Below are positions 1 through 16,142 of a stretch of DNA of 25,558 bases, piece after piece; the first letter of the stretch is position 1; each line of letters begins with the position of its first letter. Location of the stretch: positions 1 through 25,558 of IMG/VR virus record IMGVR_UViG_3300027741_000246; one strand, 5' to 3'. The stretch comes from a virus. Below the pieces are notes generated by a model. It saw nothing but the letters and a program-made list of their open reading frames with translations. It did no database searches and was not told where the DNA came from. The position numbers and the translations under genes are program-made.

Positions 1-2
1 TT

Positions 3-85
3 AAAAAACAAAAAAAAAAAAAAAAAAAAAGAGAAAACATTTGCGATAAGTGGTGTTATTCAGCACCTTTAGCAAATGTTTTCTC
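3..85 (-). terminator. Intrinsic terminator of the leftward gene 97-453
   Basis: A perfect 14-bp inverted repeat (31-44 with 72-85) encloses a loop that holds a further GGTG/CACC pair. Read leftward, the hairpin is followed by an almost uninterrupted T tract (the A run at 3-30, broken once at 9). It begins 11 bp after the stop codon of the leftward gene. Hairpin plus U tract is the classic rho-independent layout. Confidence 0.9.
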
Positions 86-96
86 TATAGAGAGAA

Positions 97-453
97 TCAA
101 TTAAAGAACGTAAGAGCCCATTTATAAAGCTCTAACGTTTCTTCATTAAACCAATCATCCTCGTCCCCAGACAAGAATGCGATTTGCCTCTCCACATCCT
201 CTTTGTAATAAGGATTGACGAGATAAGATGCACCAAACTCTGCAAGTTCAGTTTCATCCCAATTCTCATAACCAAATCTTGCTTGAAAATGATCACAATG
301 GTCACAAGAACCATATGCTCCTATCACTACACTGCGTTGACCATTATAGTCAACAACAGCTCCCCAAGTGCCTTGATAGTCACCTGAAGATTTAAAATCT
401 ATCACTGTAGCACCTGCTGCTTTCAACGCAGACGAATAACCATAAGCTGCCAT
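97..453 (-). CDS. Small phage protein with a GSCDHCDHF motif, function unknown
   Basis: This encodes 118 residues starting MAAYGYSSALKAAGAT. The centre reads YQGTWGAVVDYNG followed by GAYGSCDHCDHFQARFGY, and the C-terminal part (FGASYLVNPYY, then acidic) is helix-like. I recall phage proteins with the same order, 'AGAT...YQG...GSCxxCDxF...FGxxYL'; none has a function I know. The paired CxxC could bind a metal, but no second pair is present. The gene is monocistronic, leftward, and ends at a strong terminator. A TTAATTTG sequence on the minus strand (490-483) is one base off the Bacteroidota -7 consensus and lies about 30 bp upstream, so it may be the promoter. The start is the only ATG before the conserved-looking part. 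Confidence 0.75.
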   Translation of the reverse strand: MAAYGYSSALKAAGATVIDFKSSGDYQGTWGAVVDYNGQRSVVIGAYGSCDHCDHFQARFGYENWDETELAEFGASYLVNPYYKEDVERQIAFLSGDEDDWFNEETLELYKWALTFFN

Positions 454-504
454 AAAATATATATTTGAGGATGAAAAAAATACAAATTAAAGAGAAAATA
501 GAAG

Positions 505-1059
505 TCCCCTACTAACACATTTCTGTGCTTTCAGGGAAACCTCAAAATGAGATGAAAAAAAATAATATATACGCATGTCGTTTGCTTTTGTATACAAACT
601 TTCTCCATTATTATTACAAACCTAGTCTCATTATGAATGTCTTTTCAATTCATCTTTAAGATTTTGTTATAGGAAATGGAGACAGAGCAACCTTAATTTA
701 TGTTTGTTTAGGCTGTACACATCAGCACGCCACTCTCCATGGGCATATATAGTGCAAAGTGAGAGAATCGAACTCTATAGAACACTCCAGTCTTTGCATA
801 TCGCTAATATCAAGAGGATAATCCCAATCAATCAACTAATCTGTGGTAACTGAACAGATTTAAACAGTAGTAAATTTTACAGTTTTACTCAACTGGCTGC
901 AATAGGCATCATAAATCTAATAAACAATTATCTGTTTATTGACCAAGATTCATTTAGCCTGATAATACACACATCCATTTAAGGATATGTAAATTGCAGC
1001 AACTTCTTAATTATTCATCTCCACAAGACGGTCAAATCTTGTAGAGGAAGTTGTTTTTT
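505..1059 (+). ncRNA. Candidate large structured non-coding RNA (about 0.55 kb)
   Basis: Helices readable by eye, in order: TCCC/GGGA (505-508/534-537) around CACA/TGTG (516-519/524-527); CTCA/TGAG near 541-551; ATGAAT/ATTCAT near 632-652; ATGGAGA/TCTCCAT (676-682/734-740) enclosing CCTTAA/TTTAGG and GCTG/CAGC; TGCAAAG/CTTTGCA (753-759/792-798) enclosing AGAG/CTCT; AATCTGT/ACAGATT (838-844/854-860); and GCTGCAAT/ATTGCAGC (896-903/993-1000). The last encloses AGGC..GCCT (904-907/957-960) around AATAAACA/TGTTTATT (919-926/933-940) and a CATCC/GGAT hairpin. The array ends in a hairpin plus T6. Phages are known to carry large ornate RNAs such as GOLLD and ROOL. I see the general style but cannot assign a class. 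The 5' end and the strand are inferred, the strand from the T tract. Confidence 0.45.
1000..1059 (+). terminator. Rightward intrinsic terminator after the ncRNA candidate
   Basis: CAACTTC (1000-1006) pairs with GAAGTTG (1047-1053), and inside it CTCCACAAGA (1019-1028) pairs with TCTTGTAGAG (1037-1046) with one mismatch. Six Ts (1054-1059) follow directly. There is no rightward gene upstream, so it would end a non-coding transcript. One pair is C-A as read rightward but G-U leftward, so folding on the other strand is not excluded. Confidence 0.6.
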
Positions 1060-1078
1060 ATAACATAATGGTAGTTTT

Positions 1079-1093
1079 GTGGAGCTCTTCCAC
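1079..1093. repeat. GTGGA/TCCAC hairpin between the two terminators
   Basis: A perfect 5-bp stem with a GCTCT loop lies in the 120-bp interval between the two rightward terminators. It may be part of a second short transcript or simply of the tandem terminator. Confidence 0.4.
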
Positions 1094-1126
1094 GAAAGAA
1101 TAAAAAAATAGAAAAATAGGATTTAT

Positions 1127-1189
1127 GAAGGTTTTTTATACGTTAGTGTTAGCATGATATATCAATGCATCTAACGTTTTTTATCCTTC
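1127..1189 (+). terminator. Second rightward intrinsic terminator-like hairpin
   Basis: ACGTTAG (1140-1146) and CTAACGT (1171-1177) form a perfect 7-bp stem. Its apex can extend through a nearly self-complementary GCATGATATATCAATGC, and a T tract (1178-1182) follows. An outer GAAGG/CCTTC (1127-1131/1185-1189) adds a second helix. It faces the leftward gene at 1479-1847, so it may separate converging transcription. Confidence 0.6.
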
Positions 1190-1191
1190 GC

Positions 1192-1473
1192 CAACAAGTG
1201 AGTTTCCTCTCTTTTCAAGCGGTATTCTTGTTGTTGTACAGCCCAGCACCACGCTATGAGCCGCCTATTAGTTTAATACAGGTAAAAGTTAAACTACGAT
1301 GTAATGGACCTAAACCCTGTATTGTTGATGAGCTGAATGTCCCTATCATATCTCATCTTTACAAATCAAATACGTTTTTGTATTTCAGAACGTATAAACT
1401 GGGGCGTAGTTTTAATTCCCGTCGACCTGTGCCCTAAGGAGAATAAGCAGTTTTATGTCATGCTTAGGACAGG
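1192..1473. other. Structured non-coding block downstream of gene 1479-1847
   Basis: Perfect helices follow one another: CAACAAG/CTTGTTG (1192-1198/1227-1233), AATACAGG/CCTGTATT (1275-1282/1316-1323), GATGAG/CTCATC (1327-1332/1352-1357), AAATAC/GTATTT (1368-1373/1380-1385), and a nested set near 1426-1473 (CCTGT/ACAGG outside, TAAGCA/TGCTTA inside). Read leftward this would be the 3' untranslated region of the 122-aa gene; read rightward it would be a separate RNA. I find no T tract or promoter that settles the strand. A rightward frame of 90 codons crosses it but shows no protein-like features. Confidence 0.4.
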
Positions 1474-1478
1474 CTGAT

Positions 1479-1847
1479 TTAGAATGCAGGGCAAATGCCT
1501 CTACATCCCAAAAACGAGTTTCCATCATCAGACATTACAGGATCAGCCACTGTAAATATCTTGCTCATATCCATGCCAGCTTTAACAGCGGCTGATGCAT
1601 ATAAAGCAGAGACAATGTAGATGTCATATCCATCAGGAAGAGCATCTACGCCTGAGAATGACTTACCAAATACTGGTATACTATCAATTGCAGGTAAGTC
1701 AACTGCATTGATTTTAGCATTTAACATTCCTGTAGAAGGAATAGTTAAAACTATTGTACCTCCTGTATACTTGCGTATAGCAGGATTAAATACTGAGCCT
1801 GAAACCACATTTATGGCATGTGGTGTGCCGTTGAAAATCTTGGTCAT
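1479..1847 (-). CDS. 'TPHAI' family small phage/bacterial protein, function unknown
   Basis: This encodes 122 residues. The N-terminus reads KIFNGTPHAINVV, and the C-terminus holds VSALYASAAVKAG, then FTVADPVMSDDGNSFLGCRG. That order (N-x-TPH-x-I/V near the start, an S-A-L-x-A helix, then a DPV-x-(D/E)DG-x-x-x-G-C-R-G ending) matches a small family I recall from phages and bacteria whose role is unknown to me. The middle is hydrophobic and Gly/Pro-rich with no membrane segment strong enough to call. It stands alone, leftward, with about 360 bp of structured non-coding DNA upstream and 300 bp or more downstream. The ATG at 1847 gives the conserved-looking N-terminus, so the start is fairly safe. 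Confidence 0.8.
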   Translation of the reverse strand: MTKIFNGTPHAINVVSGSVFNPAIRKYTGGTIVLTIPSTGMLNAKINAVDLPAIDSIPVFGKSFSGVDALPDGYDIYIVSALYASAAVKAGMDMSKIFTVADPVMSDDGNSFLGCRGICPAF

Positions 1848-2209
1848 GATATATTTGATTTAATTGGTTACTAAATTAAAAACCTCCCTATGATGTTCAG
1901 GAGTTTTGAGGGTTACCTTTTGGTGTAAATTCAGCAATTCTGCATTTTATCCCCTCTTAAAAAGTTTGCTCTGTTCCTCCTTTAAGCTACAGAGACTGAT
2001 TTCAATGAATATTTGCTAGGAAATCTTACACTTGCGAGAGGGTATATCTCTCTGGGCGTACGCTTTTGTGAACGCAAATATCCATCTAAGAAGGTTTCCA
2101 CCTACAATAGCCTAAATGTATTAGACATCAAAATGTTCATTCTTCAGAAGAACATATAACAACAACCCATTCCCATAGAGAAACGAATCTCTATGAGAAC
2201 AGGAATAAT
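1848..2209. other. Non-coding gap with several hairpins (long leader of gene 1479-1847)
   Basis: No coding frame is seen. ATATTTGC (2009-2016) pairs perfectly with GCAAATAT (2074-2081). Inside, GAGAG/CTCTC near 2056-2072 and a GCGT/ACGC pair give a possible three-way junction. A second hairpin (2133-2155) nests ATGTTC/GAACAT over TTCT/AGAA. Read leftward, this is a 362-nt stretch between genes that could serve as a regulatory leader for the 122-aa gene. No TAnnTTTG promoter was found on the minus strand. Confidence 0.45.
2169..2206 (-). terminator. Hairpin after gene 2210-2473 (terminator-like, weak T tract)
   Basis: CATAGAGA (2174-2181) pairs perfectly with TCTCTATG (2188-2195) around a 6-nt loop, with outer ATTCC/GGAAT (2169-2173/2202-2206). 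It lies 4 bp after the leftward stop codon. Leftward of the stem the sequence is GGTTGTTGTTATATG, which is T-rich but not an uninterrupted tract, so it may stabilise the 3' end instead of terminating. Confidence 0.55.
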
Positions 2210-2473
2210 TTACCACTGGTCCTCAAAGCAGGACATCAAGTCTTTCCATCTAAAATTCTCATCTTTCTCAAGAAGAGAATTTAAGAAATCCATGTCTTCA
2301 GGAGTGGCTTCTCTTACAGTTTTGTCAACCACCTCGAACTCGTAGTGGTTAACAAATTCACGAGCTATCTCTAGCCCGTTCATAAAAAATCTTGAAAACG
2401 ACCCCTTTGAACCATCTTCTGCTACAAAATTGCTGATGGTTACAAACACTACATTGTTAAATGATGATGACAT
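2210..2473 (-). CDS. Hypothetical protein, 87 aa
   Basis: I do not recognise this protein. It has 87 residues: a beta-like start (NNVVFVTISNFVAEDG), a helix with NGLEIAREFVNHYEFEVVDK, then a charged helical end with TPEDMDFLNSLLEKDENF. It is soluble, with no signal peptide or membrane segment. It looks like a real gene: amino-acid use is balanced, it has the same orientation and spacing as its leftward neighbours, and a strong hairpin sits just behind the stop. The leader is AT-rich with no Shine-Dalgarno, as elsewhere here. Small accessory phage proteins acting on the host are often found in such positions, but nothing in the sequence shows a role. Confidence 0.7.
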   Translation of the reverse strand: MSSSFNNVVFVTISNFVAEDGSKGSFSRFFMNGLEIAREFVNHYEFEVVDKTVREATPEDMDFLNSLLEKDENFRWKDLMSCFEDQW

Positions 2474-2527
2474 AATATATAAAATTAAAAGGTTACAATT
2501 TTGTGTGCTATTGCCATTAAAATATTC

Positions 2528-2552
2528 ATTATGTACGGCAATTGTACATAAT
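2528..2552. repeat. Perfect 9-bp inverted repeat in the leader of gene 2210-2473
   Basis: ATTATGTAC (2528-2536) and GTACATAAT (2544-2552) flank a 7-nt loop, 55 bp upstream of the leftward start codon. It could be an operator or a leader hairpin. Two copies of the palindrome ACATGT follow at 2557-2562 and 2571-2576. Confidence 0.5.
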
Positions 2553-2624
2553 ATAACATGTATTTATTTGACATGTGGCATCAGTTCCTCGTATTTAGTG
2601 TCCCTGGAACATCATTGAGACATG

Positions 2625-2681
2625 TTTTGTTTAACGATAAGTTGAAAAAAGCCGTAAAAACTTTTCAAACGTTAAACAAAA
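2625..2681. repeat. 57-bp extended inverted repeat
   Basis: TTTTGTTTAACG (2625-2636) is perfectly complementary to CGTTAAACAAAA (2670-2681). The interior continues with GTTGAAAA.. against CTTTTC.AAAC with small bulges, giving a nearly closed hairpin. No T tract follows on either strand, so it is not an ordinary terminator. It lies in the 377-bp non-coding gap 2474-2850, which otherwise holds only the hairpins listed here. Confidence 0.7.
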
Positions 2682-2774
2682 TGAGTTTGAGCTACCATGC
2701 ACTCCTTTTATTCTACATTCTTTATACTCTATGTAAGGAACATTAAAGAGTTTCTTTCTATAGAAGAACAGAAA

Positions 2775-2845
2775 ACCCTTTGGAGTATATATATAAATAT
2801 TCTTATTCACATTCGTGATGAATATAATATATACCCCAAAGGGGT
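2775..2845. repeat. 71-bp imperfect inverted repeat with TCAC-ATTC-GTGA apex
   Basis: The outer arms ACCCTTTGG (2775-2783) and CCAAAGGGGT (2836-2845) pair with one bulge. The middle arms GTATATATATAAATATTC (2785-2802) and GAATATAATATATAC (2820-2834) pair with bulges, and the tip can close as TCAC/GTGA. The arm at 2832-2846 can instead fold locally as TACCCC-AAA-GGGGTA, so two alternative structures exist. It is immediately downstream of the leftward gene 2851-3150. Confidence 0.6.
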
Positions 2846-2846
2846 A

Positions 2847-2866
2847 CGAACTACAGTGGTAGTTCG
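2847..2866 (-). repeat. Perfect 8-bp hairpin spanning the stop codon of gene 2851-3150
   Basis: CGAACTAC (2847-2854) pairs with GTAGTTCG (2859-2866) around 4 nt. The leftward TAG stop (2853-2851) is inside the stem. With the TACCCC hairpin next to it, it makes a double hairpin at the mRNA 3' end. There is no T tract. Confidence 0.6.
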
Positions 2867-3150
2867 TTTATTGCCATTGGTCTTTGTTGCAAGACCGCAA
2901 GACTTCTTATCTCCTTCTCTTGTTCGAAGGTGAAGTCTGCTACCCACGTTAGTCCCAACTCGTTCTCTTCAAGTTCCAGTATGAACAGTTTCTTGGGGTC
3001 AAATCCCAAGTTTGTGTTTACTATGAAACTTTTGTCTCCAACCACGTAGTGGTCGAAGAATTGTCCTGCTAACTTTGTCTTTTCTCCGTAAGGTACATTG
3101 GCTCTTACTTTTCTAACTTTACTTAATTCTCTTCCTTGTAATGTTGGCAT
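2851..3150 (-). CDS. Hypothetical protein, 99 aa
   Basis: I do not recognise this protein. It has 99 residues with a basic N-terminal third (GRELSKVRKVRANVPYGEKTK), a central beta-rich part (FFDHYVVGDKSFIVNTNLGFD, LFILELEENELGLTWVADF) and a short helical end. It is soluble, with no Cys. It is the first leftward gene and is transcribed away from the rightward block across a 293-bp divergent region. Its codons are less AT-biased than those of its neighbours (AAC and ACC occur), which may point to good expression or separate origin. The chosen ATG follows an AT-rich, SD-less leader. Confidence 0.7.
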   Translation of the reverse strand: MPTLQGRELSKVRKVRANVPYGEKTKLAGQFFDHYVVGDKSFIVNTNLGFDPKKLFILELEENELGLTWVADFTFEQEKEIRSLAVLQQRPMAINELPL

Positions 3151-3295
3151 AATTTTATTTTTATGGGGTCGCTACCCGCTCCCCGCCAATCACAGGAGGA
3201 GTTGCTATTGGAAGTACCCTCCTCCACCATCTACATAAAAAATTTTTGGAATGTAAAGGAGGGGGGGGGGGCTAGAAAAAAAAATTATTTTTTTT

Positions 3296-3323
3296 TTTGT
3301 ATTTGTATTTCCCCTTACCTTTG
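3296..3323 (+). promoter_or_regulatory. Possible upstream rightward promoter (short spacer)
   Basis: TTTG (3296-3299) and TACCTTTG (3316-3323) match the Bacteroidota -33/-7 forms, but the spacer is 16 bp rather than the roughly 19 bp seen at 19761-19791. The -33 part is the end of the T11 tract, so length variation there would alter it. Confidence 0.3.
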
Positions 3324-3423
3324 AAGGGTGGAGGGCGGGAATAGATCTATAGAAACCATAGAATTTTTAGGTTTTATAGCTTATGTGGTTTAGAGGAGTT
3401 TTCACTTTACACAAAAATCTATT

Positions 3424-3431
3424 TATCTTTG
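3424..3431 (+). promoter_or_regulatory. Bacteroidota-type -7 element for the first rightward block
   Basis: TATCTTTG fits TAnnTTTG exactly and is identical to the -7 element at 19784-19791. No good TTTG lies 19-21 bp upstream (the region reads TTTTCACTTTAC), so an activator may be needed. The start codon is only 12 bp after the element, so the mRNA leader would be almost absent. Confidence 0.6.
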
Positions 3432-3443
3432 TAGGAATTAAAT

Positions 3444-3797
3444 ATGGAAAATAGAAAAACGATATTACAGACATTGAGGAAAACACTTCCTGATGTTTAT
3501 TCAATAGCAGAAAAGTATTATGCATTCATTTCTGTTATGAATGACATTAAGTTGTCTGAGAGAGAAATACAATTGATATCATTTTTTGCTGTTAAAGGGA
3601 ATATTTCCTATACAGTGAATAAGGAGGAGTTTTGTAAGAAGTATAATAGTTCTGAAGCTACAATGAATAATATTATTTCTAAGCTTAAGAAGATGAAGAT
3701 TTTGTATAAGGAAGGCAATAGGATAAAATTACATTCTGCCATTCTATTGGATTTTAGTAAGAACATTTCTCTCAATATAAATCTTGTACATGAATAA
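3444..3797 (+). CDS. Winged-helix-like DNA-binding protein
   Basis: This encodes 117 residues. Residues about 35-105 (SEREIQLISFFAVKG... EEFCKKYNSSEATMNNIISKLKKMKILYKEGNRIKL) read as a winged helix: a tri-helical core, a recognition helix around SEATMNNIISKLKK, and a beta wing around ILYKEGNRIKL. The pattern 'EEFCxxxNSSxATxNNIISxLxKxxxLxKE' recalls small DNA-binding proteins of Bacteroidota phages; I know no proven target. It is first in the packaging/head block, immediately behind a -7 element, so a role in late transcription or in terminase or replication control is plausible but inferred. Its stop overlaps the next start (ATGAATAA). Confidence 0.75.
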   Translation: MENRKTILQTLRKTLPDVYSIAEKYYAFISVMNDIKLSEREIQLISFFAVKGNISYTVNKEEFCKKYNSSEATMNNIISKLKKMKILYKEGNRIKLHSAILLDFSKNISLNINLVHE

Positions 3798-4140
3798 GCC
3801 TTCTTCTATGTCGATTAAGGAATACCTTGTACGTTTACAAGCTATGTCTTCTCTAAGAAGTGAGAGTGTTATTAACAGTGTTATTACACATCAGTTTCAG
3901 AGTGCTAATGATGCTATGAAAACAAACAACAGTGTAGAGATTTCTGGCTTTGGAAAGTTTTATTTTAATTTACCAAAGGCTAAGAAAAGAATAGAAGCTC
4001 TTAATAATAAGATAAGGAATTATAAGAGAGCGTTAATAGAAGACAGTCCTTCAGAAATTCTCATAAAAAGAATAGAAGCAAGAATTGTTTTTCTACAGGA
4101 AGAATTAGACAGATTAAATAATAAAACCAATGAGCTTTAA
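3790..4140 (+). CDS. IHF/HU-like DNA-bending protein with C-terminal coiled coil
   Basis: This encodes 116 residues from the ATG at 3790. A TTG six bases upstream could add two residues but is less likely. Residues about 6-55 (SIKEYLVRLQAMSSL..ESVINSVITHQFQSANDAMKTNNSVEISGFGKFYFN) follow the HU/IHF order: two helices, then the 'V-x-x-x-GFGxF' beta hairpin. The long DNA-clasping arm is not evident. The C-terminal half is charged and helical (KKRIEALNNKIRNYKRAL... RIEARIVFLQEELDRL), a likely coiled coil. crAss-like phages are known to encode an IHF-subunit-like protein. It overlaps the genes on both sides, so it is translationally coupled. It may assist DNA condensation or packaging. Confidence 0.75.
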   Translation: MNKPSSMSIKEYLVRLQAMSSLRSESVINSVITHQFQSANDAMKTNNSVEISGFGKFYFNLPKAKKRIEALNNKIRNYKRALIEDSPSEILIKRIEARIVFLQEELDRLNNKTNEL

Positions 4141-4432
4141 ACAAATTTTAGAAGGATGGAGAAATCACATTATTCCTCCAGAAGAATTGAAAGAAGTGAT
4201 TAATAACACTTCTATAGAAAGAATGAATATATGTAACAAGTGTGAATGGTTTTCTGAGAATAAAAAGAAGACAGGGGAATATAACACGTTGCGTCCTGAT
4301 GAACATTGTACAAATTGTGGATGTACGCTTTCTGCTAAAACAAAATGTCTTTCTTGTAGCTGTCCTTTGTCTCTATGGGATGCTGTTACAACAGATGAAA
4401 GTATTGATGACGAATTAAATGATTTGAAATGA
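4130..4432 (+). CDS. Small zinc-ribbon-like protein (eight Cys)
   Basis: This encodes 100 residues. The cysteines are C35-x2-C38, C60-x2-C63-x-C65 and C73-x2-C76-x-C78, with motifs ICNKCEWFS, RPDEHCTNCGC and KTKCLSCSCPLSLW. This order resembles a zinc-binding family seen in many phages; it probably binds one or two zinc ions. Its function is not known to me. The N-terminus (residues 1-30) is a basic/amphipathic helix and the C-terminus is acidic. It starts inside the preceding gene's end (11-nt overlap), and the next gene starts by an ATGA overlap, so it belongs to a coupled cluster leading to terminase. Confidence 0.8.
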   Translation: MSFKQILEGWRNHIIPPEELKEVINNTSIERMNICNKCEWFSENKKKTGEYNTLRPDEHCTNCGCTLSAKTKCLSCSCPLSLWDAVTTDESIDDELNDLK

Positions 4433-4632
4433 ACAATATGACAATAAGGAAAGTGGAATTGTTGGCATTGTTGACAGCTTTGAAAGAAGTGTATGAAACA
4501 ACAGAGGTTAGGTATATTGATATTACAGCAACGCTTCATGACGATGAGGATACATTGATGATAACACCTTCTGAAGACGACGATGATGATGACGAAGAAA
4601 TAATTGAAATTGATATAACGGATTTAGCATGA
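4429..4632 (+). CDS. Small acidic protein, 67 aa
   Basis: I do not recognise this protein. It has 67 residues with an N-terminal helix (TIRKVELLALLTALKEVYETT), a beta stretch (VRYIDITATL) and a very acidic C-terminus with a run of six Asp followed by Glu, then IIEIDITDLA. The charge suggests DNA mimicry or binding to a basic partner, but this is inference. It is coupled by ATGA overlaps at both ends (4429-4432 and 4629-4632). The GAC/GAT repeat encoding the Asp run is a possible slippage site. Confidence 0.7.
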   Translation: MNNMTIRKVELLALLTALKEVYETTEVRYIDITATLHDDEDTLMITPSEDDDDDDEEIIEIDITDLA

Positions 4633-4805
4633 ACACAATACAAGACGCATTTTATTTTATAGAGAAGTTGGCAGCAATATGTGCTACGCCAGGAATTAAT
4701 GTAACAACACAAGATATTGCAAATAATCAAATACAGAGATTGTTGGGTGTGGTGGAACAGGAAGTGAAGAAGATAACAGCACAAAGCAGTGGAATAATAA
4801 TTTAG
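4629..4805 (+). CDS. Short protein, 58 aa, between the acidic protein and gene 4808
   Basis: A complete frame from the ATG at 4629 (overlapping the preceding TGA) to TAG at 4803-4805. It encodes MNTIQDAFYFIEKLAAICAT, then PGINVTTQDIANNQIQ, and ends in a helix with RLLGVVEQEVKKITA. The coupled start, the 2-bp gap to the next gene and the balanced composition argue that it is real. No family is recognised. Without it there would be a 175-bp gap in an otherwise gap-free cluster. Confidence 0.7.
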   Translation: MNTIQDAFYFIEKLAAICATPGINVTTQDIANNQIQRLLGVVEQEVKKITAQSSGIII

Positions 4806-4807
4806 AA

Positions 4808-5077
4808 ATGGCAAAGAAGAAGAACGAATATAGTGAAATCATTGATGTGTTGAAAGAGCTAAAAACTCTCCATCCCTCTTATGGTATGGGAAGACACATA
4901 GCAACAGCTTTAGATGATTGTGGAGACGTGTGGGGAATGAGAGACAGTGAAATGCTTTTTGCTCTACAGAAATACAAGAGTGAATTAGACATGAACATTG
5001 TCTCAGATGATGCCCTTGATAATATTGTAAAGGATGGATTGAATTTATTTAACCAAGAAGACTATGGCGACTATTAA
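4808..5077 (+). CDS. Conserved-looking small phage protein, 89 aa
   Basis: This encodes 89 residues. It has a basic start (MAKKKNEYSEII), then LKELKTLHPSYGMGRHIATALDDCGDVWGMRDSEMLFALQKYKSELD, mostly helical, and an acidic end. The 'LHPxYxxGxHxxTALxDxGDxWGxxDxExLFALxKYxxEL' pattern is one I associate with small proteins near terminase in Bacteroidota phages; no function is known to me. It ends inside the start of the next gene (14-nt overlap), so the two are likely co-translated. Confidence 0.75.
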   Translation: MAKKKNEYSEIIDVLKELKTLHPSYGMGRHIATALDDCGDVWGMRDSEMLFALQKYKSELDMNIVSDDALDNIVKDGLNLFNQEDYGDY

Positions 5078-5396
5078 AAAAACTACATACATTAATACAG
5101 AACTTGAGTGGGCAGAGGAACAACTTGCTTCATGGAAAGCTTATGTCAATGCCAATCCTCTTCACGAGTTGAAGGATAGGATTGAATGGAAACCAACATC
5201 AAAAGGAGGAATGCTTCCAATGGTGATTGCTTCTATAGAAGCTCAAGGTAAGTTTGTTCAAGAGACAATGAAGAACTATTTAGCTTTATTAGAAGTGGTG
5301 GATAAACTTAGAGAAAAAGAAGAATCAAAAGTGGAAGTGAGAGGTAAGGGAGAATTGTCTTCTATGGCTGAAGACTTTCTTAAAAATAGAAAATGA
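5064..5396 (+). CDS. Small helical protein before terminase, possible small terminase subunit
   Basis: This encodes 110 residues, nearly all helical: TELEWAEEQLASWKAYVN, a conserved-looking RIEWKPTSKGGMLPMVIASIEAQGK, then a charged coiled-coil (YLALLEVVDKLREKEESKVEV) and a short tail RGKGELSSMAEDFL. It lies directly upstream of the large terminase and overlaps it by ATGA. Small terminase subunits are usually at this position, are helical and bind DNA at the N-terminus. No helix-turn-helix is evident here, so the assignment rests on position and fold style only. The alternative is a conserved hypothetical protein. Confidence 0.6.
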   Translation: MATIKKTTYINTELEWAEEQLASWKAYVNANPLHELKDRIEWKPTSKGGMLPMVIASIEAQGKFVQETMKNYLALLEVVDKLREKEESKVEVRGKGELSSMAEDFLKNRK

Positions 5397-7420
5397 TCAA
5401 TCTCAAAAATATAGATTATAAAGATTGGTACATCAATCAAAAAAGAATTCCAGACAAATCTTCTGAAGAACATAGAGAGTTTTTCAACCATCACAAAGAA
5501 TTGTGTCTGAACGGAGCAATGATGGATGGTGTGTACATAAACCCATTTTTATATTGGCACCTCAACTTCTGGAACACAGAGGTGGATATAATAGATGAGC
5601 GTGGAAGAATCTCCCAAAAATATGCCAATCCCTATTTGAGAGATAATGAATGGGTGATAACAAATGAAATTGATAGGGCACAGAACGAAAGAAAAGGACT
5701 TGTTATTTTAGGCATAAGACGTTTGGCAAAATCAGTTTTAGAATCAAGCTACATAGCTTGGGGAGCAACGTTTGATGAAAACTCACAGAACGTAATTGCA
5801 GGCTTAAATAGCCCTGATATAAAGCTTATTACAGATAAGATAGACAAGGGATTGAATTTCATTCCTGAAGCTTGGAGGTGGCAAAGAATAGAAGATAATT
5901 GGAAGAATCAAGTGACGCTAGGAATTAAAACTAAATCAGGAGAAAGGATTCCTTATTCCTCTATTCTTATTCGTAACCTTGATGAAGGTAATAATGAGGA
6001 AGCTATTGCAGGTACAAAACCCAGAAAGCTTATTATAGATGAGATAGGAAAAGGATCTTTTCTTAGAGGACTTCAGGCTGCTATTCCAGGATTTACAACA
6101 CCCTTTGGATGGGGCTGTTCTCCTATTCTTACAGGAACAGGTGGTGACATGAAAAGGTTTATGGATGCCAAGAGTCTTATGTTTGATGTAGACAATTTCA
6201 ACTTCCTTACGTACAATAATTCAAAAGATACATCTAGAATACATGGGCTGTTTATTTCTAACAAGTATAGAATGGAAGCCAAAGAAGATTCTTCTCTTGG
6301 TGCTTTCTTAAACGTTCCTCTTTCTTCAGAACTACACCAAGTTAAAATGCTTGTAAGCAATGAAGAAAAAGCAAATGCTCTCACTGTAAGTAATCTTGAA
6401 CGTCTGAAGAAAGCTGGAGATAGAATTGCCTACCTAAAAGAAAAGATGTACTATCCTCAAGAAGTGGATGATATATTTTTAAATGAGGATACAAACATAT
6501 TTGATATTGAATCTGCCAAGAGACAAAAGAGTAGATTGTTACAACAATTGAGAACAGGCACTCCTGTTATTCTTTTCCAAGACGAGGGTAAAATATCACA
6601 CGAGTTTACAGACAAACTACCTATTTCAAACTTTCCTCTAAAGAACTCTGATTTAAAAGATGCTCCTGTAGTTATATATGAATTCCCTATAGAAAATCCT
6701 CCATACGGATTGTATGTAGCAGGAGTGGATCCCTACAGACAGGGACAATCAGCATACAGTTCTTCTCTAGGTAGTGTGTATGTATATAAGAGAATGCACA
6801 GCTTGATGGATGAGAAATACCAAGACATGTTTGTAGCTTCTTATTGTGCACGTCCTGATAAGAAAGAAACATGGGAAGAACAAGCTAGGATGCTAATTAA
6901 GTATTATAATGCTCGCACTCTTTGTGAGAATGATGATATTTCTTTTATAGAATACATGAAGTCAAAAGGAGATGCACAATATTTAGAGAAACAGCCTCAA
7001 TGGCTTATGGAGATTGTTCCTAACACAACAGTGAAACGAGAATACGGAATACATAGAAGTAGTCAAAAGATTATTGACTATTTACATGCATGTCTAAAGA
7101 AATACATGGAAGAATCTATTGTCAAAGAAACTGATGAGAATGGCTCTGTGATTAGAGAAGTGTTTGGAGTGAATAAAATACTTGATCCTGTTCTTCTAGA
7201 AGAAATCATCCAGTATAATGATAATGGTAACTTTGATAGAATTATTGCTGCGGAATTAGCAATAGCACAAGCACTTAAAATGGATCCTATATTTGGAAAA
7301 ATAGGAGGAAGTGGAGATGATAGAGTGAAGTCTTTGTATTCAGGGAAAAGAAACAATAAATTATTTTCTGAATCAAGTTCTCTTTTTTACAATAAACAAA
7401 AACAAAAACTGTTTACATAA
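5393..7420 (+). CDS. terL: Terminase large subunit (packaging ATPase/nuclease)
   Basis: This encodes 675 residues, at the long end for crAss-like enzymes. The ATPase half has a deviant Walker A, LGIRRLAKS (about 106-114), a Walker B LIIDEIG (about 213-219, D-E pair) and a coupling motif TGTGGD (about 245-250). The nuclease half is RNase H-like: VAGVDPY (about 442-448), CENDD (about 509-513) and NFDRIIAAELA (about 612-622) supply the acidic metal ligands. It cuts concatemeric DNA and drives it through the portal into the prohead. It starts by ATGA overlap with the small protein before it and ends in TAATG shared with the portal start, so the three are coupled. Confidence 0.93.
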   Translation: MINLKNIDYKDWYINQKRIPDKSSEEHREFFNHHKELCLNGAMMDGVYINPFLYWHLNFWNTEVDIIDERGRISQKYANPYLRDNEWVITNEIDRAQNERKGLVILGIRRLAKSVLESSYIAWGATFDENSQNVIAGLNSPDIKLITDKIDKGLNFIPEAWRWQRIEDNWKNQVTLGIKTKSGERIPYSSILIRNLDEGNNEEAIAGTKPRKLIIDEIGKGSFLRGLQAAIPGFTTPFGWGCSPILTGTGGDMKRFMDAKSLMFDVDNFNFLTYNNSKDTSRIHGLFISNKYRMEAKEDSSLGAFLNVPLSSELHQVKMLVSNEEKANALTVSNLERLKKAGDRIAYLKEKMYYPQEVDDIFLNEDTNIFDIESAKRQKSRLLQQLRTGTPVILFQDEGKISHEFTDKLPISNFPLKNSDLKDAPVVIYEFPIENPPYGLYVAGVDPYRQGQSAYSSSLGSVYVYKRMHSLMDEKYQDMFVASYCARPDKKETWEEQARMLIKYYNARTLCENDDISFIEYMKSKGDAQYLEKQPQWLMEIVPNTTVKREYGIHRSSQKIIDYLHACLKKYMEESIVKETDENGSVIREVFGVNKILDPVLLEEIIQYNDNGNFDRIIAAELAIAQALKMDPIFGKIGGSGDDRVKSLYSGKRNNKLFSESSSLFYNKQKQKLFT

Positions 7421-10008
7421 TGCCTATAATTAGATATACAAAAGATGCTACGATTAGATATGCCTATCTTAATATATTCCCTGACCAATTTAAAACAGAC
7501 AAAGAGAAGCAAGATGAGAGTTGGGTGAAGAATACAATGGACTATTTTGCAAATAAAGCTTATGCAGAATATGTAAAGAATAGAGATACATTTGTTAAAA
7601 ACTATGATCTTATTAAAGGGATTCTTCGTCCTGAAGATTTCTATCAAGAACAAGATGTAAAGTCATTTACAGAAATGTTACAAAGTGATTTGGAACTTCC
7701 TGCATATGTTAAACATTATTCAATTATTACAACACCTGTTAATGAACTTGTGGGAGAGATTTCAAAAAGACCTAACACATATTCTATAAAAGCATTTGAT
7801 GATGATAGTAAAGCAGAAGAGTTGGAATACAAAACACAGCTTCTTCAGGACTACGTAATGAATCAAGTGAAACAAGACATTCTGCAGAAAGCAGCAATGA
7901 GAGGAGAAGAAATAGACGAGGAGCAGTTGAATCAAATGACAATGGAGCAGGTGAAAGAAGATTTAGATTCTTACACATCTGTTGCAGAGAAATGGGCAAA
8001 TCACATACTTACAGCTACAAAAGCTGAATTCAATCTCAAAGAAAAGAGTGAGGATGCATTTAGAGACATGATGATCACTGCTAGAGAATTCTATCACATC
8101 TATGAAGACAATTCTAAAACAGGATATAATATAGAAGTGTGCAATCCTAAGAATACATGGTTTCTCACTACACCTGATAGAAAGTATATTTCAGATGTAA
8201 CAGGTAGGGCACAAGGAGCGTATGCTGCTGGAACAGTGATGGTGATGGAATTGTCTGAAATTATAGAAACATTCCCATTCATCACTAAAGAAGAGATAGA
8301 TCATCTAAGAAGTTCTCTACAGGACTACGGACTTATAAATGTGAGAGAGTCTAACTTGGGAAATCCTAATGCCACTCCTGGAACAGACTCTGTACAATAT
8401 GATACATACGATCCTCTTGTGCTTCGTACAAGAATGATTATTGAATCAGAAATGAAAGAGAACAATGATGGACTAAAAGACTTTTTAGGACTTACATCAA
8501 ATGTTTCCTCATTTGGATACAAATACGTTGTTGTAAGAGCCTATTGGATTTCAAAAAAGAAAATAGGAAAGCTTATATTCTTAGATGAAATGGGTAATGA
8601 ACAATCAATACTTGTTGATGAGAGTTATAAAAGCAACACCATTCCTACACAACAGTCTTTAGAATGGGGATGGGTGAATCAATGGTATGAAGGAGTGAAG
8701 ATAGGACCAGACATCTATCACATCAAACCTTACAAACTTCTTCCATACTGTCCCATTATAGGACTTACACATGAAGTGAAGAACACAGAAGCAAAGTCTT
8801 TAGTAGACTTAATGAAACCTTTTCAGGTGATATACAATGTTTGTATGAATCAACTGTTTAAACTTCTTGAGAAAGAAATAGGAAAAGTTTATTTAACATC
8901 AATTAGACACATTCCTGTTCCAAAAGATGGAGATGCTCAAGATGCTCTTGACATGTGGGAGTTGGAAGCAAGAAATCGAGGAGTGGTATTTATTGATGAC
9001 TCTCCAGAAAATCTAAAAGCACCATCTTCTTTCAACCAGTTCAGAGACATTGATTTAACAAGAACACAAGAAATACAATCTCGTTACACTCTTGCACAAC
9101 AAATGAAGAATGAGTGTTGGGAATTGATAGGTATGTCTAAACAGAGAATGGGAAGTATTTCTGCATCAGAATCTGCTACAGGAACAAATGCTGCTCTTAC
9201 ACAAAGTTATTCTCAAACAGAACCTCTTTTTGTAGCTCATGAATATGTATTAGGACAACTCTATCAAGCTGTTATTGATGCTTCTCTCTATGTAGAAAGC
9301 AAAAAGCCTCAATCAACAATTTCATACATTACATCTAAAGGAGAATCAGCATTTGTAGAAGTGAATGGTACAGATTTGAGATTTAGAGATTTAAAAGTGT
9401 TTGCTACAAATAGACCTGAAGATAAAAAGATGTTTGAAGAGATTAGACAATTGTCTCAAGCTGTTATACAGAATGGTGGATCATTGTACGACATTATAGA
9501 ATTGTATTCTACAGATTCTGTACGTCAAATGAAGAAGGTGTTTAAGACATTGAAAGATAGACAAGAGCAAATGCAAGACCAACAACAACAAATGCAACAA
9601 CAGCAGCAACAAGCTCAACAAGAACAAGCTCAAGCTCAATTGGCACAACAACAACAACAACATGAAGAGCAAATGGCTCACGATGATTATCAAAAACAAC
9701 TTGATAGACTTTCTAAAGAGAAGATTGCAATTATTTCAGCAACAGGATATGGTAATGTTGCAGCAGAAGATGTTGACCAGAACGCTGTTCCAGATGTATT
9801 AGAAATGAGTAAGCTTTCTCACGAGCAGGAAAAGGCTGCAAAAGATTATCAGTTGAAAATGCAAGACATACAATTGAAGAATAAACAATCAAACGATAAG
9901 ATGGCTTTAGAAAGAGAGAAGCTTCAAGTGGCAAGAGAGAATCAAAAGAATGATTTAGAGATTGCTAGAACAAATGCAAAGAACAGAGCGTCAAAGACTA
10001 AAAAATAG
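7420..10008 (+). CDS. Portal protein
   Basis: This encodes 862 residues, large as in crAss-like phages. It is identified by position (directly after terminase, before scaffold and capsid), by size and by portal-like content: an N-terminal alpha/beta region with TTPVNELVGEISKRP, a central wing, and a long helical stretch with LMKPFQVIYNVCMNQLFKLLEKEIG and MSKQRMGSISASESATGTNAALTQS, a crown/stem pattern found in portals of this kind. The C-terminus holds a glutamine-rich tract (about 707-745) followed by charged coiled coils to TKK. It would form the dodecameric DNA channel at one capsid vertex. It is closed by TAG and followed by the first sizeable gap of the block. Confidence 0.88.
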   Translation: MPIIRYTKDATIRYAYLNIFPDQFKTDKEKQDESWVKNTMDYFANKAYAEYVKNRDTFVKNYDLIKGILRPEDFYQEQDVKSFTEMLQSDLELPAYVKHYSIITTPVNELVGEISKRPNTYSIKAFDDDSKAEELEYKTQLLQDYVMNQVKQDILQKAAMRGEEIDEEQLNQMTMEQVKEDLDSYTSVAEKWANHILTATKAEFNLKEKSEDAFRDMMITAREFYHIYEDNSKTGYNIEVCNPKNTWFLTTPDRKYISDVTGRAQGAYAAGTVMVMELSEIIETFPFITKEEIDHLRSSLQDYGLINVRESNLGNPNATPGTDSVQYDTYDPLVLRTRMIIESEMKENNDGLKDFLGLTSNVSSFGYKYVVVRAYWISKKKIGKLIFLDEMGNEQSILVDESYKSNTIPTQQSLEWGWVNQWYEGVKIGPDIYHIKPYKLLPYCPIIGLTHEVKNTEAKSLVDLMKPFQVIYNVCMNQLFKLLEKEIGKVYLTSIRHIPVPKDGDAQDALDMWELEARNRGVVFIDDSPENLKAPSSFNQFRDIDLTRTQEIQSRYTLAQQMKNECWELIGMSKQRMGSISASESATGTNAALTQSYSQTEPLFVAHEYVLGQLYQAVIDASLYVESKKPQSTISYITSKGESAFVEVNGTDLRFRDLKVFATNRPEDKKMFEEIRQLSQAVIQNGGSLYDIIELYSTDSVRQMKKVFKTLKDRQEQMQDQQQQMQQQQQQAQQEQAQAQLAQQQQQHEEQMAHDDYQKQLDRLSKEKIAIISATGYGNVAAEDVDQNAVPDVLEMSKLSHEQEKAAKDYQLKMQDIQLKNKQSNDKMALEREKLQVARENQKNDLEIARTNAKNRASKTKK

Positions 10009-10048
10009 TAATGCCATATTAGCTTCAAAATTCACTGTTTTCAAACCT

Positions 10049-10086
10049 AATGTATTTGTTAGAATACATTTAATACATATTTTTAC
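10049..10086 (+). promoter_or_regulatory. Hairpin between portal and scaffold genes, possible attenuator
   Basis: AATGTATT (10049-10056) pairs perfectly with AATACATT (10063-10070) around TGTTAG. After eight bases comes a T5 run. The stem is AT-only, so weak as a terminator. It sits in the 98-bp gap 10009-10106 and could reduce or process readthrough between head genes. Confidence 0.4.
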
Positions 10087-10106
10087 ACTATAAACCAAAA
10101 CTACAT

Positions 10107-11357
10107 ATGTCTGATAATTTAGAAACCCCATCATTTGGAGATTTCAGTATACAAAATACAATGGAAATGGGAATGGGCAATCAAGAATTGCTTAAAGACC
10201 TAATGTCCACAGAAACATCCACCGCTTCTCCAGAAGAAGTGACTGAAATAAAAGAAGAAGCTCCAAAACCCTCCACAAAATCATCATCCCCAAAAACTAC
10301 AGAAAGCGATGCTCCTAAAAAGGAAGAATCAGATGCAGCAAGCAAATCGATTCAAGATTTTCTTCTTGGAGAAACAGAAGAAGAAGACGATGATAACGAT
10401 ATTCCTGCAAAACCATCTGCAAAATCTAAAACAGCTCCTTCAAATGAAGAATCTGATGATGATGACAATGATGATGTATCAAATAGATTTACAGCCCTTT
10501 CTAATGATTTATTCAAACTTGGAGTTTTTAATAAAGACGAAGATGAAGAGGATGTTAACATTGAATCAGCAGAAGACTTCCTTGAAAGATTCAATCTAGA
10601 AAAGAAGAAAGGCTCTATAGAAATAGTACAAAACTTTATAGGACAGTTTGGTGAAGATTATCAACAAGCATTCGATGCAATCTTTGTAAAAGGTGTAGAT
10701 CCTAAAGAATATTTTGGTGTATATAATAATATAGAAAGTTTTGCAAACCTTGATCTTTCTGAAGAAAGAAATCAAGAAGCAGTTTTGAAACAAGCTCTTG
10801 CTGATCAAGGCTTCGAACCAGAAGATGTTGATTCAGAAATTGAAAGACTAAAAAATTATGGAGATTTAGAAACTGTAGCACAAAAACACCACAAGGTGTT
10901 AGTGAAAAAAGAAGCAGCAAAACTCCAACAGTTAGAAAGACAAAACGAAGAAAGATTACAAAAACAATATGCCTTTAGACAACAATACGTAAACAACGTA
11001 CAAAATGTTCTACAGTCAAAACTAAAAACAAAAGAATTTGATGGTATTCCCATCAATCCCAAACTTGCTGGTGATCTACAGGACTTCTTAGTGACAGAAA
11101 AATATCAAACTCCATCAGGAGAAAAACTTACAGAGTTTGATAGACAAATTCTTGAATTAAAAAGACCAGAGAATCATGAGATGAAAGTGAAAGTGGGACT
11201 GCTTTTAAAAATTCTAGAAACTGACCCTACACTTTCAACAATACAGAAAAGGGCAGTGAGTAAAAAATCAGATGAGTTGTTTAGTGAAGTGGCAAGACAA
11301 ACTTCAAAAAGTGGCAAATCACTAAGCTCATCAAAACCATCATCTTGGTTTCTGTAA
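10107..11357 (+). CDS. Scaffold-like head assembly protein
   Basis: This encodes 416 residues. The first about 150 are low-complexity, Ser/Pro/Lys/Glu/Asp-rich and very acidic (EEEDDDND, ESDDDDNDD), so probably disordered. Residues about 155-310 are helical, with GVDPKEYFGVYNNIESFANLDL and a coiled coil (KKEAAKLQQLERQNEERLQKQYAF). The C-terminus is Ser/Lys-rich and ends SSWFL. Between portal and major capsid genes, phages usually encode a scaffold or head protease; no protease triad is seen, so scaffold fits best. The leader is A-rich with no Shine-Dalgarno sequence. The sequence itself does not show whether the protein is cleaved. Confidence 0.65.
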   Translation: MSDNLETPSFGDFSIQNTMEMGMGNQELLKDLMSTETSTASPEEVTEIKEEAPKPSTKSSSPKTTESDAPKKEESDAASKSIQDFLLGETEEEDDDNDIPAKPSAKSKTAPSNEESDDDDNDDVSNRFTALSNDLFKLGVFNKDEDEEDVNIESAEDFLERFNLEKKKGSIEIVQNFIGQFGEDYQQAFDAIFVKGVDPKEYFGVYNNIESFANLDLSEERNQEAVLKQALADQGFEPEDVDSEIERLKNYGDLETVAQKHHKVLVKKEAAKLQQLERQNEERLQKQYAFRQQYVNNVQNVLQSKLKTKEFDGIPINPKLAGDLQDFLVTEKYQTPSGEKLTEFDRQILELKRPENHEMKVKVGLLLKILETDPTLSTIQKRAVSKKSDELFSEVARQTSKSGKSLSSSKPSSWFL

Positions 11358-11382
11358 CAAATAATAATAAAAGATAATAAAA

Positions 11383-12936
11383 ATGGCAATTTCAACAATT
11401 CCTGGAGTTACTGGCTTTACATATGCCAGAGTGGCTTCAATGGACAAAAGAGCGGTGGGCAAGCTTACTGATGCTAACCACTTAGAAAGTTTTCACTCTA
11501 CAGAACCTGCAGACTATGATAAGAAAATCATCAGTCTTTACACACAGAGTTCTTTGTATTCTAACGATTTCTTGGACATGATTAACAAGTCCACTCCTTT
11601 TTATATTGATAATAACAGTGATGCTTGGAAATGGGACATTCAAGTTCCTTACAAGTTTCCTAAAATTATCGATATTCCTACAGCAACTTCCAATCTTACA
11701 AAACCTGGTATCGATGGTCAAGAGTTTTCTCTTGTTCTTGATACTAATGAGTTCTCTAAGAATGCAATTGTATCTGTAGGTACTCGTCAGTATGGTCCTC
11801 GTTTCTACGTAGTTAAAGATCCTCTTCCTTGGAATGCTGGATATTTGTATTCATTCACTCTTGTGTCTGATAACCCTACAGTGGATTTTGTTAGTTCTAC
11901 ATTTCTTCAGACAGGTATTGAACTTGAATTGATTGACGCTGCAATTGGCGAATTTGATCAAGACTTGTTAGGACTTCCTCGTTTGGGTGAGAAAATCACT
12001 ATGTTTGAATCTTTAGGATCAGCATATGGTTATGAGCACAAAATCACTGAGTGGGCTGATGACAAGATGATGAAAGATGCTTCTGGTAAAGCTTTGGATA
12101 TTTTGGTGTATGCTCCACAAAGACGTAACCAACTTCCTTTAACTCGTAACGATGTTAAATGGGAACCATTCATTGAGTTCTGGATGCGTAAGTCTATGTT
12201 AGAATTGAAAGTGAAGCGTATGATTTGGGCTAAACCAGGTACAGTGAAAACTAATGGTTCTAAGCAAGAATTAAAGCGTACATCTGCTGGTGTTTATCAC
12301 AGAATGAGAAACAACGGTAACTTGGTACAATACAATCGTGGTGAATTCACTGCAAACTTAATCAGAAGTGTATTTGGTGATCTTTTCTACAGAAGGGTGG
12401 ACGTTAAAGACCGTAAGGTGAAAATGTACACCAATGAAGCAGGATTTGACGTTTTCCAACAAGCTTTGAAAACAGATGCTTTAAATTCAGGACTTACTTT
12501 CATGGCAGATAGCGGTAATCGTTACATGCAAGGTGAAGGTCAGCACATCACTTACAACTTTGCGTTTGACTCAATGGTCACTCGTGAAACTGGTCGTGTA
12601 GAGTTGATTCACTTGAAAGAACTTGATCTTCCACAATCAAATTTAGAATTTGGTCAAAACAAGAAATCCACTCCTGTATTCATGGTATTTGACGTATCTC
12701 CAATGAGCGATGGTTCAATGGTGAATAACATCAGAGAAGTGAGAATGAAAGGTGCTCCTTCTATGACTTGGGGTTATATTGATGGTACTCGTCACCACTT
12801 AGGTTTTGCAAAATCTCAAGGTATGAGTTCTGCTAACAAGTTCCCTGGTTATGAAATTTGGATGAAAGATAGATGCGATGTATTCATTGAAGATTTGTCT
12901 CGCACAGTTTTGATCGAAGAAATACCACAGTTCTAA
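11383..12936 (+). CDS. Major capsid protein
   Basis: This encodes 517 residues, the size expected for a crAss-like HK97-fold capsid protein, and lies after the portal and scaffold-like genes. Gly-Pro-rich turns and mixed alpha/beta content fit a capsid. Readable segments include GVTGFTYARVASMDKRAVGK, KWDIQVPYKFPKI, LLGLPRLGEKITMFESLGSAY and MSDGSMVNNIREVRM. Codon use differs from the neighbours: at least a dozen CGT arginines and many GGT/GCT codons, where terminase and portal mostly use AGA. The leader is A-rich and SD-less (AATAATAATAAAAGATAATAAAA), which is how highly translated Bacteroidota genes start. Both features fit the most abundant virion protein. A cluster of hairpins follows the stop. 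Confidence 0.88.
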   Translation: MAISTIPGVTGFTYARVASMDKRAVGKLTDANHLESFHSTEPADYDKKIISLYTQSSLYSNDFLDMINKSTPFYIDNNSDAWKWDIQVPYKFPKIIDIPTATSNLTKPGIDGQEFSLVLDTNEFSKNAIVSVGTRQYGPRFYVVKDPLPWNAGYLYSFTLVSDNPTVDFVSSTFLQTGIELELIDAAIGEFDQDLLGLPRLGEKITMFESLGSAYGYEHKITEWADDKMMKDASGKALDILVYAPQRRNQLPLTRNDVKWEPFIEFWMRKSMLELKVKRMIWAKPGTVKTNGSKQELKRTSAGVYHRMRNNGNLVQYNRGEFTANLIRSVFGDLFYRRVDVKDRKVKMYTNEAGFDVFQQALKTDALNSGLTFMADSGNRYMQGEGQHITYNFAFDSMVTRETGRVELIHLKELDLPQSNLEFGQNKKSTPVFMVFDVSPMSDGSMVNNIREVRMKGAPSMTWGYIDGTRHHLGFAKSQGMSSANKFPGYEIWMKDRCDVFIEDLSRTVLIEEIPQF

Positions 12937-12944
12937 TAACCCCC

Positions 12945-13102
12945 CTAGGAATAGTATTCATAGACCTACACACTAGCAATAGTGTTTATACATCCTACCA
13001 AGAAGAATCTCCCCCCACCTCCAAGTGGGGGAGTCTTCTTACATACAGAATGAAGAATTAAGGTGATACTTAATTGCTATCTCTTCGATGAGGATCATTC
13101 TG
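12945..13102 (+). promoter_or_regulatory. Structured 3' region after the capsid gene
   Basis: Three elements follow one another. (1) CACTA-GCAA-TAGTG (12971-12984) carries a GNRA-type tetraloop. (2) A long stem (13000-13040) pairs AAGAAGA..CTCCCCC.AC with GTGGGGGAGTCTTCTT across two small bulges. (3) A CAGAATGA/TCATTCTG helix (13046-13053/13095-13102) encloses ATTAAG/CTTAAT (13057-13062/13069-13074) and a short CTC/GAG hairpin, forming a three-way junction. There is no T tract, so protection or processing of the capsid mRNA 3' end is more likely than full termination. Confidence 0.6.
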
Positions 13103-13137
13103 CAAAAACAAAATAAAAAAACCAAAACAACTAAATA

Positions 13138-14106: not shown

Positions 14107-14834
14107 TACCAGTAGATAGTTTATTATACAAGATTGATCAGAAACTAAATAAACTATCAACAAATGACCATCAACAAATTCCATTAGAAGACAAAATCTT
14201 AGCTCTTAATGAAGCTCAGATTAAGTTGATAAAACAAAAAGTTGATGGTGATAGTACATTAAATGGGTTGGGACTTGATGCTTTTAAGAAGAGATATGAA
14301 GATTTACAGAAGCTTGTTGAGCCTTATGAGAAACATGCGTTAGACTTAGTTTTAGCTGATGAAAACATGAATAAGTGGACAACTTCTCTTTTAAATCTTA
14401 CGCCTGCATACATGTTTTATATAGATTGTTATTTAACAGCAGATAAAGGAAGATGTAAAGATAGAGTAATATACATAAACAAAGATTTAACCAAACATGG
14501 TGATCTTTCTATGTTTCTAACAAACACTCATTACAAACCATCTTTCGAATATCAAGAAACATTCAATATCATTTCTTCAGATAGTATAGGAATATTTACA
14601 GACGGAACATTCATTCCAAAAAAACTTCATCTCTCATACATGCGTTATCCCAAATACATAGACAAAGAAGGCTATGTGAAACTTGATGGGAATGATTCTA
14701 CAAATCAGGATTGTGAATTGAAAAACTATTTAGAAGATGAACTTGTTGATTTGACAGTTCAAAATCTAGCAATGTACACAGAAAATCAAAGTGCTGTTCA
14801 AAATTCAGCATTTAGAATAAAAACAAACGAATAA
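14103..14834 (+). CDS. Probable head-completion or connector protein, 243 aa
   Basis: This encodes 243 residues. An N-terminal helical half (PVDSLLYKIDQKLNKLST...LALNEAQIKLIKQKV, then YEDLQKLVEPYEKHALDLVL) is followed by a beta-rich half with LHLSYMRYPKYIDKEGYVKLDGN and a C-terminal helix ELKNYLEDELVDLTVQNLAMYT. The 'LxYxRYPxxIDxxGYxxxDG...DCEL' and closing helix are typical of neck or connector-like proteins in large phages. It is translationally coupled to the 322-aa gene. The alternative is an inner head protein. No catalytic motifs are seen. Confidence 0.55.
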   Translation: MIPVDSLLYKIDQKLNKLSTNDHQQIPLEDKILALNEAQIKLIKQKVDGDSTLNGLGLDAFKKRYEDLQKLVEPYEKHALDLVLADENMNKWTTSLLNLTPAYMFYIDCYLTADKGRCKDRVIYINKDLTKHGDLSMFLTNTHYKPSFEYQETFNIISSDSIGIFTDGTFIPKKLHLSYMRYPKYIDKEGYVKLDGNDSTNQDCELKNYLEDELVDLTVQNLAMYTENQSAVQNSAFRIKTNE

Positions 14835-14861
14835 TTATTTAAAACAATAAATTAAAATAAA

Positions 14862-16061: not shown

Positions 16062-16085
16062 TCAGTAAATAACAAATCATAACCC

Positions 16086-16136: not shown

Positions 16137-16142
16137 GAGATT

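Follow-up and report, generated by a model that had tools for sequence, protein, structure and literature searches.

Gene layout around the non-coding region

The DNA analysed here, hereafter called the window, is a virus record of 25,558 bases. Its terminase, portal and major head protein fall into PHROG families of those functions, and the nearest relatives of the terminase are those of Leptolyngbya phage Lbo-JY46 (39%), Cellulophaga phage phi4:1 (33%) and gut crAss-like phages. Judged from these sequence relationships, the source of the window is an environmental crAss-like phage. Its genes are read from the minus strand between about position 3150 and the left end and from the plus strand from position 3444 on. 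The region of interest (454-1478) is located 4-5 kb from the terminase gene between two minus-strand genes:

97-453, minus strand: left flanking gene, 118 amino acids, phrog_28969, function unknown
1479-1847, minus strand: right flanking gene, 122 amino acids, phrog_30542, function unknown

The region is shared by a near relative, which is a single phage represented in three IMG/VR contigs (L002, L003, and L004 with L087). The only reading frame of at least 50 amino acids that lies completely inside the region (1165-1437, plus strand) is broken in this relative by a frameshift and a stop codon, and this agrees with a previous reading of the sequence alone (the sequence-only reading), according to which no coding frame fits here.

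Three other non-coding stretches of the window were recorded. Positions 10-90 form a long hairpin that is followed on the minus strand by about 20 U (fold z of 1-150: -6.7 on the minus and -6.5 on the plus strand); this structure is likely the terminator of gene 97-453. The 200 non-coding bases that follow the major head protein gene (12937-13137) matched 35 gaps of other loci in blastn at 65-88% identity, the near relative not counted. A conserved non-coding stretch at 3151-3443, where the leftward and the rightward genes diverge, gave nhmmer matches (E up to 1, some of them weak) in 46 loci besides those of the near relative.

Folding signal and direction of transcription

Perfect stems (loops of 3-100 nucleotides, overlapping alternatives counted) were enumerated in the region and in 200 dinucleotide shuffles. 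Here, we found 26 stems of at least 7 bp compared with 8.4 ± 2.9 in the shuffles, none of which reached 26. For stems of at least 8 bp the corresponding values were 10 and 2.2 (0 of 200 shuffles), and 5 of the 26 stems consisted entirely of A/T pairs. This excess bears out the array of about ten nested short perfect helices that had been noticed before, and the 8-bp helix enclosing complete hairpins is also present (GCTGCAAT/ATTGCAGC, 896-903 with 993-1000). The hairpin plus T6 at which the array was said to end could be confirmed only in its parts. Both elements exist (1019-1046 and 1054-1059), but they are not adjacent: the 7 bases between them (GAAGTTG, 1047-1053) pair with CAACTTC at 1000-1006 in another helix. 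The combination is also absent from the listing of our terminator scan.

When the complete region was folded (24 shuffles for each strand), the z-score was -4.7 for the minus strand vs. -2.8 for the plus strand. Among eleven 150-nt segments, the minus strand of 901-1050 folded most strongly (z -7.2, compared with -2.5 for the plus strand), and several segments were unremarkable. As a group, the minus-strand segments of the region had lower values than 74 late-gene segments (p = 0.004), which was not the case for the plus-strand segments (p = 0.18). For three coding stretches of some 800 bases, folded on both strands as controls, the z-scores lay between -0.7 and -3.2, and a coding segment of the same leftward block (2251-2400, minus strand) reached -5.5. 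Since coding segments can be that low, a low z-score by itself is no proof of an RNA gene.

The flanking genes and the folding energies both point leftward, and on these grounds we read the region from the minus strand. Among ten folded gaps, this window included, eight folded better on the strand of their flanking genes. A promoter scan inside the region indicated two weak sites on the plus strand and one on the minus strand, none of them outstanding. A rightward transcript of 0.5-0.6 kb with its end at the T6 is not supported, and the rightward direction of the sequence-only reading is probably wrong.

Conserved modules

Comparison with the near relative divides the region into segments of different conservation, and an additional conserved segment (I1) was found beyond the span of the sequence-only reading. 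The features are as follows:

476-543, minus strand: terminator-like 3' end of module A, an imperfect hairpin (501-543) followed by a U-rich tail (476-500)
558-741, minus strand: core of module A, no difference from the relative in 184 bases
751/752: junction at which the L002 phage carries an extra 272 bp with a 74-amino-acid minus-strand frame
752-1062, minus strand: module B1; 308 aligned bases with 5 substitutions, plus 5 gap columns; fold z-score -4.4 for the minus and -2.8 for the plus strand
753-798, minus strand: tRNA-like minihelix, detected by a script scan; acceptor TGCAAAG/CTTTGCA, 14-nt linker, 4-bp T-stem, T-loop TTCGATT
892-1055, minus strand: B1 core, a nested hairpin and a three-way junction with an 8-bp closing helix; strongest folding signal of the region
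939-944, minus strand: GGUCAA, possible partner of 1030-1035, its GGUC located in a bulge
1030-1035, minus strand: hairpin loop UUGACC, complementary to 939-944
1063-1116: spacer, diverged; 14 differences in 54 bases, plus 12 gap columns
1117-1478, minus strand: module B2; 358 aligned bases with 6 substitutions, plus 7 gap columns; fold z-score -2.5 for the minus and -1.1 for the plus strand
1960-2209, minus strand: module I1, non-coding, no difference from the relative in 250 bases

B1 and B2 together carry 11 substitutions in 666 aligned bases with 12 gap columns. Among the fourfold sites of the two flanking genes, 31 of 88 differ between the phages; in the structural genes of 3444-17062, 72 of 1574 do. 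B1 and B2 evolve more slowly than the latter sites (Fisher p = 3e-4), but the difference is only about threefold. The entire stretch 454-751, with 11 substitutions in 294 bases, is no slower than fourfold sites. On the minus strand, I1 begins at a terminator-like hairpin (2166-2203), and its neighbouring genes diverge. The genes of 3444-17062 share 96-99% identity between the two phages with exact runs of 101 to 477 bases, and recombination could be an alternative source of the conservation mosaic.

A and B1 are separable because the relative carries 272 bp with the 74-amino-acid frame between them. These separately conserved modules disfavour the single large RNA of the sequence-only reading and are consistent with the several RNAs that it had also considered. 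The B1 core is compact (164 nt), and a kissing contact between its loop 1030-1035 and the complementary bases 939-944 is possible. Apart from the window itself and the near relative, a covariance model of this core gave no convincing homologue, with best E-values of 3.4 (83 loci) and 0.6 (33 whole records).

When A, B1 and B2 are folded as consensus on the minus strand, all 8 changed pairs still pair, and all changes are one-sided (seven A-U/G-U, one G-C to G-U). The plus-strand folds contain 4 changed pairs, none of them broken and one two-sided. These counts say little, since the folds were derived from the same two sequences and are biased towards compatibility. A two-sided change was also seen in the spacer hairpin 1079-1093, where pair 1082-1090 is G-C in the window and A-T in the relative; this single change is strand-neutral. 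Covariation is the usual proof of a structured RNA and the comparison set for the region comprises only two distinct sequences, which accounts for the bulk of our doubt. Taken together, the region is non-coding, structured, modular, more conserved than its neighbours and better folded on the minus strand, and its modules are likely structured RNAs.

Conserved structure in a gap between small genes may also belong to cis-acting untranslated regions, so that the modules would serve the small genes as terminators, attenuators and leaders, and no free-standing RNA would be formed. It can be seen that terminator-like sites are enriched in this part of the genome (8 in 1-3500 vs. 1.8 in shuffles), that the minus-strand genes 2210-2473 and 2851-3150 are each directly followed by a terminator-like hairpin, and that B2 begins at the stop codon of a gene. 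However, none of the 8 listed sites is located inside 454-1478, and a conserved 1 kb with three separate blocks and a 164-nt three-way-junction core exceeds ordinary terminators and leaders. The hairpin 501-543 with its U-rich tail is likewise not in the scan list. We consider this explanation rather unlikely.

Homology and family searches

At gathering scores, Rfam cmscan returned no match in the whole window. When E-values up to 5 were admitted over positions 1-3400, four matches were obtained, which were weak microRNA and CRISPR-repeat rows below their own thresholds; none was located in 454-1478 and none belonged to GOLLD, ROOL or a ribozyme. Thus, the kinship with GOLLD or ROOL that had been considered for this locus was given no covariance-model match in the window. 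A distant blastn search of 1-3300 against phage records found nothing. With the DNA of 454-1478 as query, 20 of 50 records matched at E up to 0.1. Apart from the near relative (two records) and a 37-base head in common with L082 (E = 1.4e-9), these matches were short (36 bases of an A-rich stretch at 1.1e-4, others at E of 0.004 or worse).

Exact probes of 16-18 bases were searched in viral_contigs. Those of A retrieved only the three contigs of the near relative, those of B1 these contigs and L120, and those of B2 the contigs of the near relative and seven others. None of these 8 other contigs aligned to window positions 1-5392 at E 0.01. A short hairpin like ACCTAAGCATGTCATTAAACTGCTTA, which is related to the start of B2, recurs outside large genes (L082:5379-5403, L011:5709-5733, L013:5735-5759, L040:1018-1042 and 4118-4141). 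The partial texts retrieved on crAss-like phages or Crassvirales with non-coding or structured RNA or tmRNA do not describe the elements reported here.

RNA elements in the same gene block of relatives

The homologue of gene 1479-1847 in L082 has a hatchet ribozyme upstream (RF02678, L082:3501-3635, plus strand, 82.4 bits, in a non-coding gap) and directly downstream a gap of 700 nt, which is the position of B2 in the window. This gap and gaps in many other relatives contain a recurrent RNA element, R2 (CCCAAGG ... GCAGAGGG, helices P1-P3):

L082:4586-4765 and 5734-5907: R2 copies
L002:7172-7316: R2 copy
35 further sources: R2 copies

Among ten copies, 11 of 20 pairs showed two-sided changes, a value reached by none of 500 shuffles; helices P1 and P2 fail in 4 of the 10 copies (L032, L044, L050 and the second L082 copy). 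With the R2 model, 37 of 85 sources were hit at E below 0.01, giving 40 matches in all; this count includes some near-duplicates, two matches cut by a locus end and nine from the sources of the model itself. In the window, no R2 match was obtained at E up to 1, and with filters off the best score over 1-3500 was 6.6 bits (E = 1.4). At gathering scores, Rfam found nothing at the R2 copies in the nine loci scanned, and R2 is possibly a new RNA class of crAss-like phages. The element presumably bears some likeness to twister, whose loop pseudoknot we take to involve CCCAAG. An assignment of R2 to twister was rejected: in 20 records the Rfam model Twister-P5 had a single match, which did not reach its cut-off, and on L082 4347-6069 Rfam at E up to 5 showed no twister.

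With a hatchet ribozyme and the covarying R2 in the same gene block, one may ask whether at least one module of the window is a new self-cleaving ribozyme or is processed by one. Against this idea, no ribozyme family was detected in 1-3400 at E up to 5, R2, for which cleavage is putative, is absent from the window at the threshold given above, and the hatchet motif was present in only 1 of 24 records searched. It appears quite improbable to us.

tRNA and tmRNA genes were also found in this block. In phi4:1 (L122) 22 tRNAs are encoded on the minus strand beside the packaging genes, together with one doubtful tmRNA call. Lbo-JY46 (L121) carries 17 tRNAs beside the packaging genes, on the plus strand and thus on the strand of the terminase rather than on the opposite one. 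Of 49 further loci, 3 contain a tRNA and 5 a tmRNA (L033, L069, L071, L076, L080); the ends of these tmRNA genes are some 7-8 kb away from the terminase, beyond the left end of the window. In whole records, a tmRNA scored above the cut-off in 8 of 50. In the near relative, a 99-nt stretch some 4 kb to the left of the region scores above the cut-off for tRNA (L002:309-407, minus strand, 39.2 bits), and the only tmRNA signal of this phage is a partial match of 17 positions (L002:506-522, about 4 kb from the region). By eye, a leucine-like tRNA with a long D-loop insertion can be recognized at L002 ~498-640 (minus strand), part of which scores 20.8 bits, below the cut-off. ARAGORN reported neither of these two tRNA-like genes.

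In the window itself, ARAGORN and Rfam found no tRNA or tmRNA. The minihelix stands at the 3' end of B1 and has no anticodon arm. Of such short tRNA-like forms, 1.66 Mb of loci contained seven distinct ones (window, near relative, L007, L012 and single forms in L031, L052 and L084), and one mononucleotide shuffle gave one. The forms at L007:4279 and L012:2924 (both minus strand) are nearly identical to each other and consist of an acceptor, one small hairpin and a T-arm, without an ordinary anticodon arm. Two other candidates were discarded. B2 contains GTCGACGGG, which we took to be a tmRNA 5'-end motif, and B1 ends in a T-arm; a tmRNA across B2 and B1 was rejected because a matching acceptor 5' strand, a tag and a model match were lacking. 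At very low score limits, ARAGORN returned tRNA-like and permuted-tmRNA forms in large numbers (with introns allowed, three sequences gave 906 tRNA forms), which we judged to be noise.

The tRNA clusters that adjoin the packaging genes of the two isolates, and the acceptor and T-arm retained by the minihelix, would fit a region of degenerating tRNA or tmRNA genes in which the minihelix is the remnant of an isolate-like array. Decay would not be expected to leave B1 and B2 slower than fourfold sites, and the window gave no tRNA or tmRNA match; this origin is very unlikely. An element acting at the DNA level, for instance an origin of replication or a packaging site, is suggested by the presence of conserved non-coding DNA within 4-5 kb of the terminase gene but has equally little to recommend it, as folding is strand-asymmetric, which points to RNA, and the other relatives searched lack matching sequence of any length here.

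Proposed interpretation

We lean, with some reserve, towards the interpretation that 454-1478 encodes several leftward structured RNAs whose role is perhaps related to translation. The region would be part of a leftward unit made up of small genes with non-coding structured RNAs between them, comprising at least three RNA modules: B2, B1 with its 164-nt core and 3' minihelix, and A, which would end at the terminator-like hairpin. The modules may be transcribed together with the upstream gene and then cut into stable RNAs. In this scheme the minihelix would mark a 3' end as substrate of RNase P or RNase Z, and RNA ends would be formed at the minihelix and at the hairpin 501-543. A role around translation is suggested purely by genomic company, namely the tRNAs and tmRNA in the same gene block of relatives.

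A more far-reaching scenario, which we offer tentatively and regard as less probable, is that phages of this group keep a slot for structural RNAs beside the packaging genes in which unrelated RNAs replace one another. The window would then hold new RNA classes, one of which would end in an armless tRNA-like minihelix directing its processing or an action on host translation.

There are few phage RNAs without a known function, and our understanding of them is poor. Provided that the modules are real, they mark a site in the genomes of a common group of phages at which a systematic search for new RNA classes could be made. The same gene block has yielded the covarying R2, for which Rfam gave no match in the scanned loci. 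Owing to its small size, the B1 core is amenable to direct structural and biochemical work.

Comparison with known systems

GOLLD and ROOL are described in PMC12286853 as phage-borne, non-coding and elaborate RNAs that are often located near tRNA islands. The region resembles them in that it is also phage-encoded (crAss-like genes), with a tRNA match about 4 kb away in the near relative and tRNA clusters in two isolates. In contrast to these RNAs, it lacks an Rfam match and its conservation is modular rather than that of one long RNA. GOLLD and ROOL assemble into RNA-only cages.

With tmRNA (RF00023) and phage tRNA clusters the region shares the gene block in relatives, and the minihelix has an acceptor and a T-arm. 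It differs from them in that neither a complete tRNA nor a complete tmRNA is present: an anticodon arm is lacking, a tag frame was not found, and no covariance model matched in 1-3400. The hatchet ribozyme (RF02678) occupies a non-coding gap of the same block in L082 and is absent from window positions 1-3400. Theta ribozymes lie beside phage tRNAs and have been proposed to act in tRNA maturation (PMC10879173). They are HDV-like, whereas the region matches no Rfam family, in a library that may not include theta. The likeness to the modules described here is that of small structured RNAs in phage tRNA regions.
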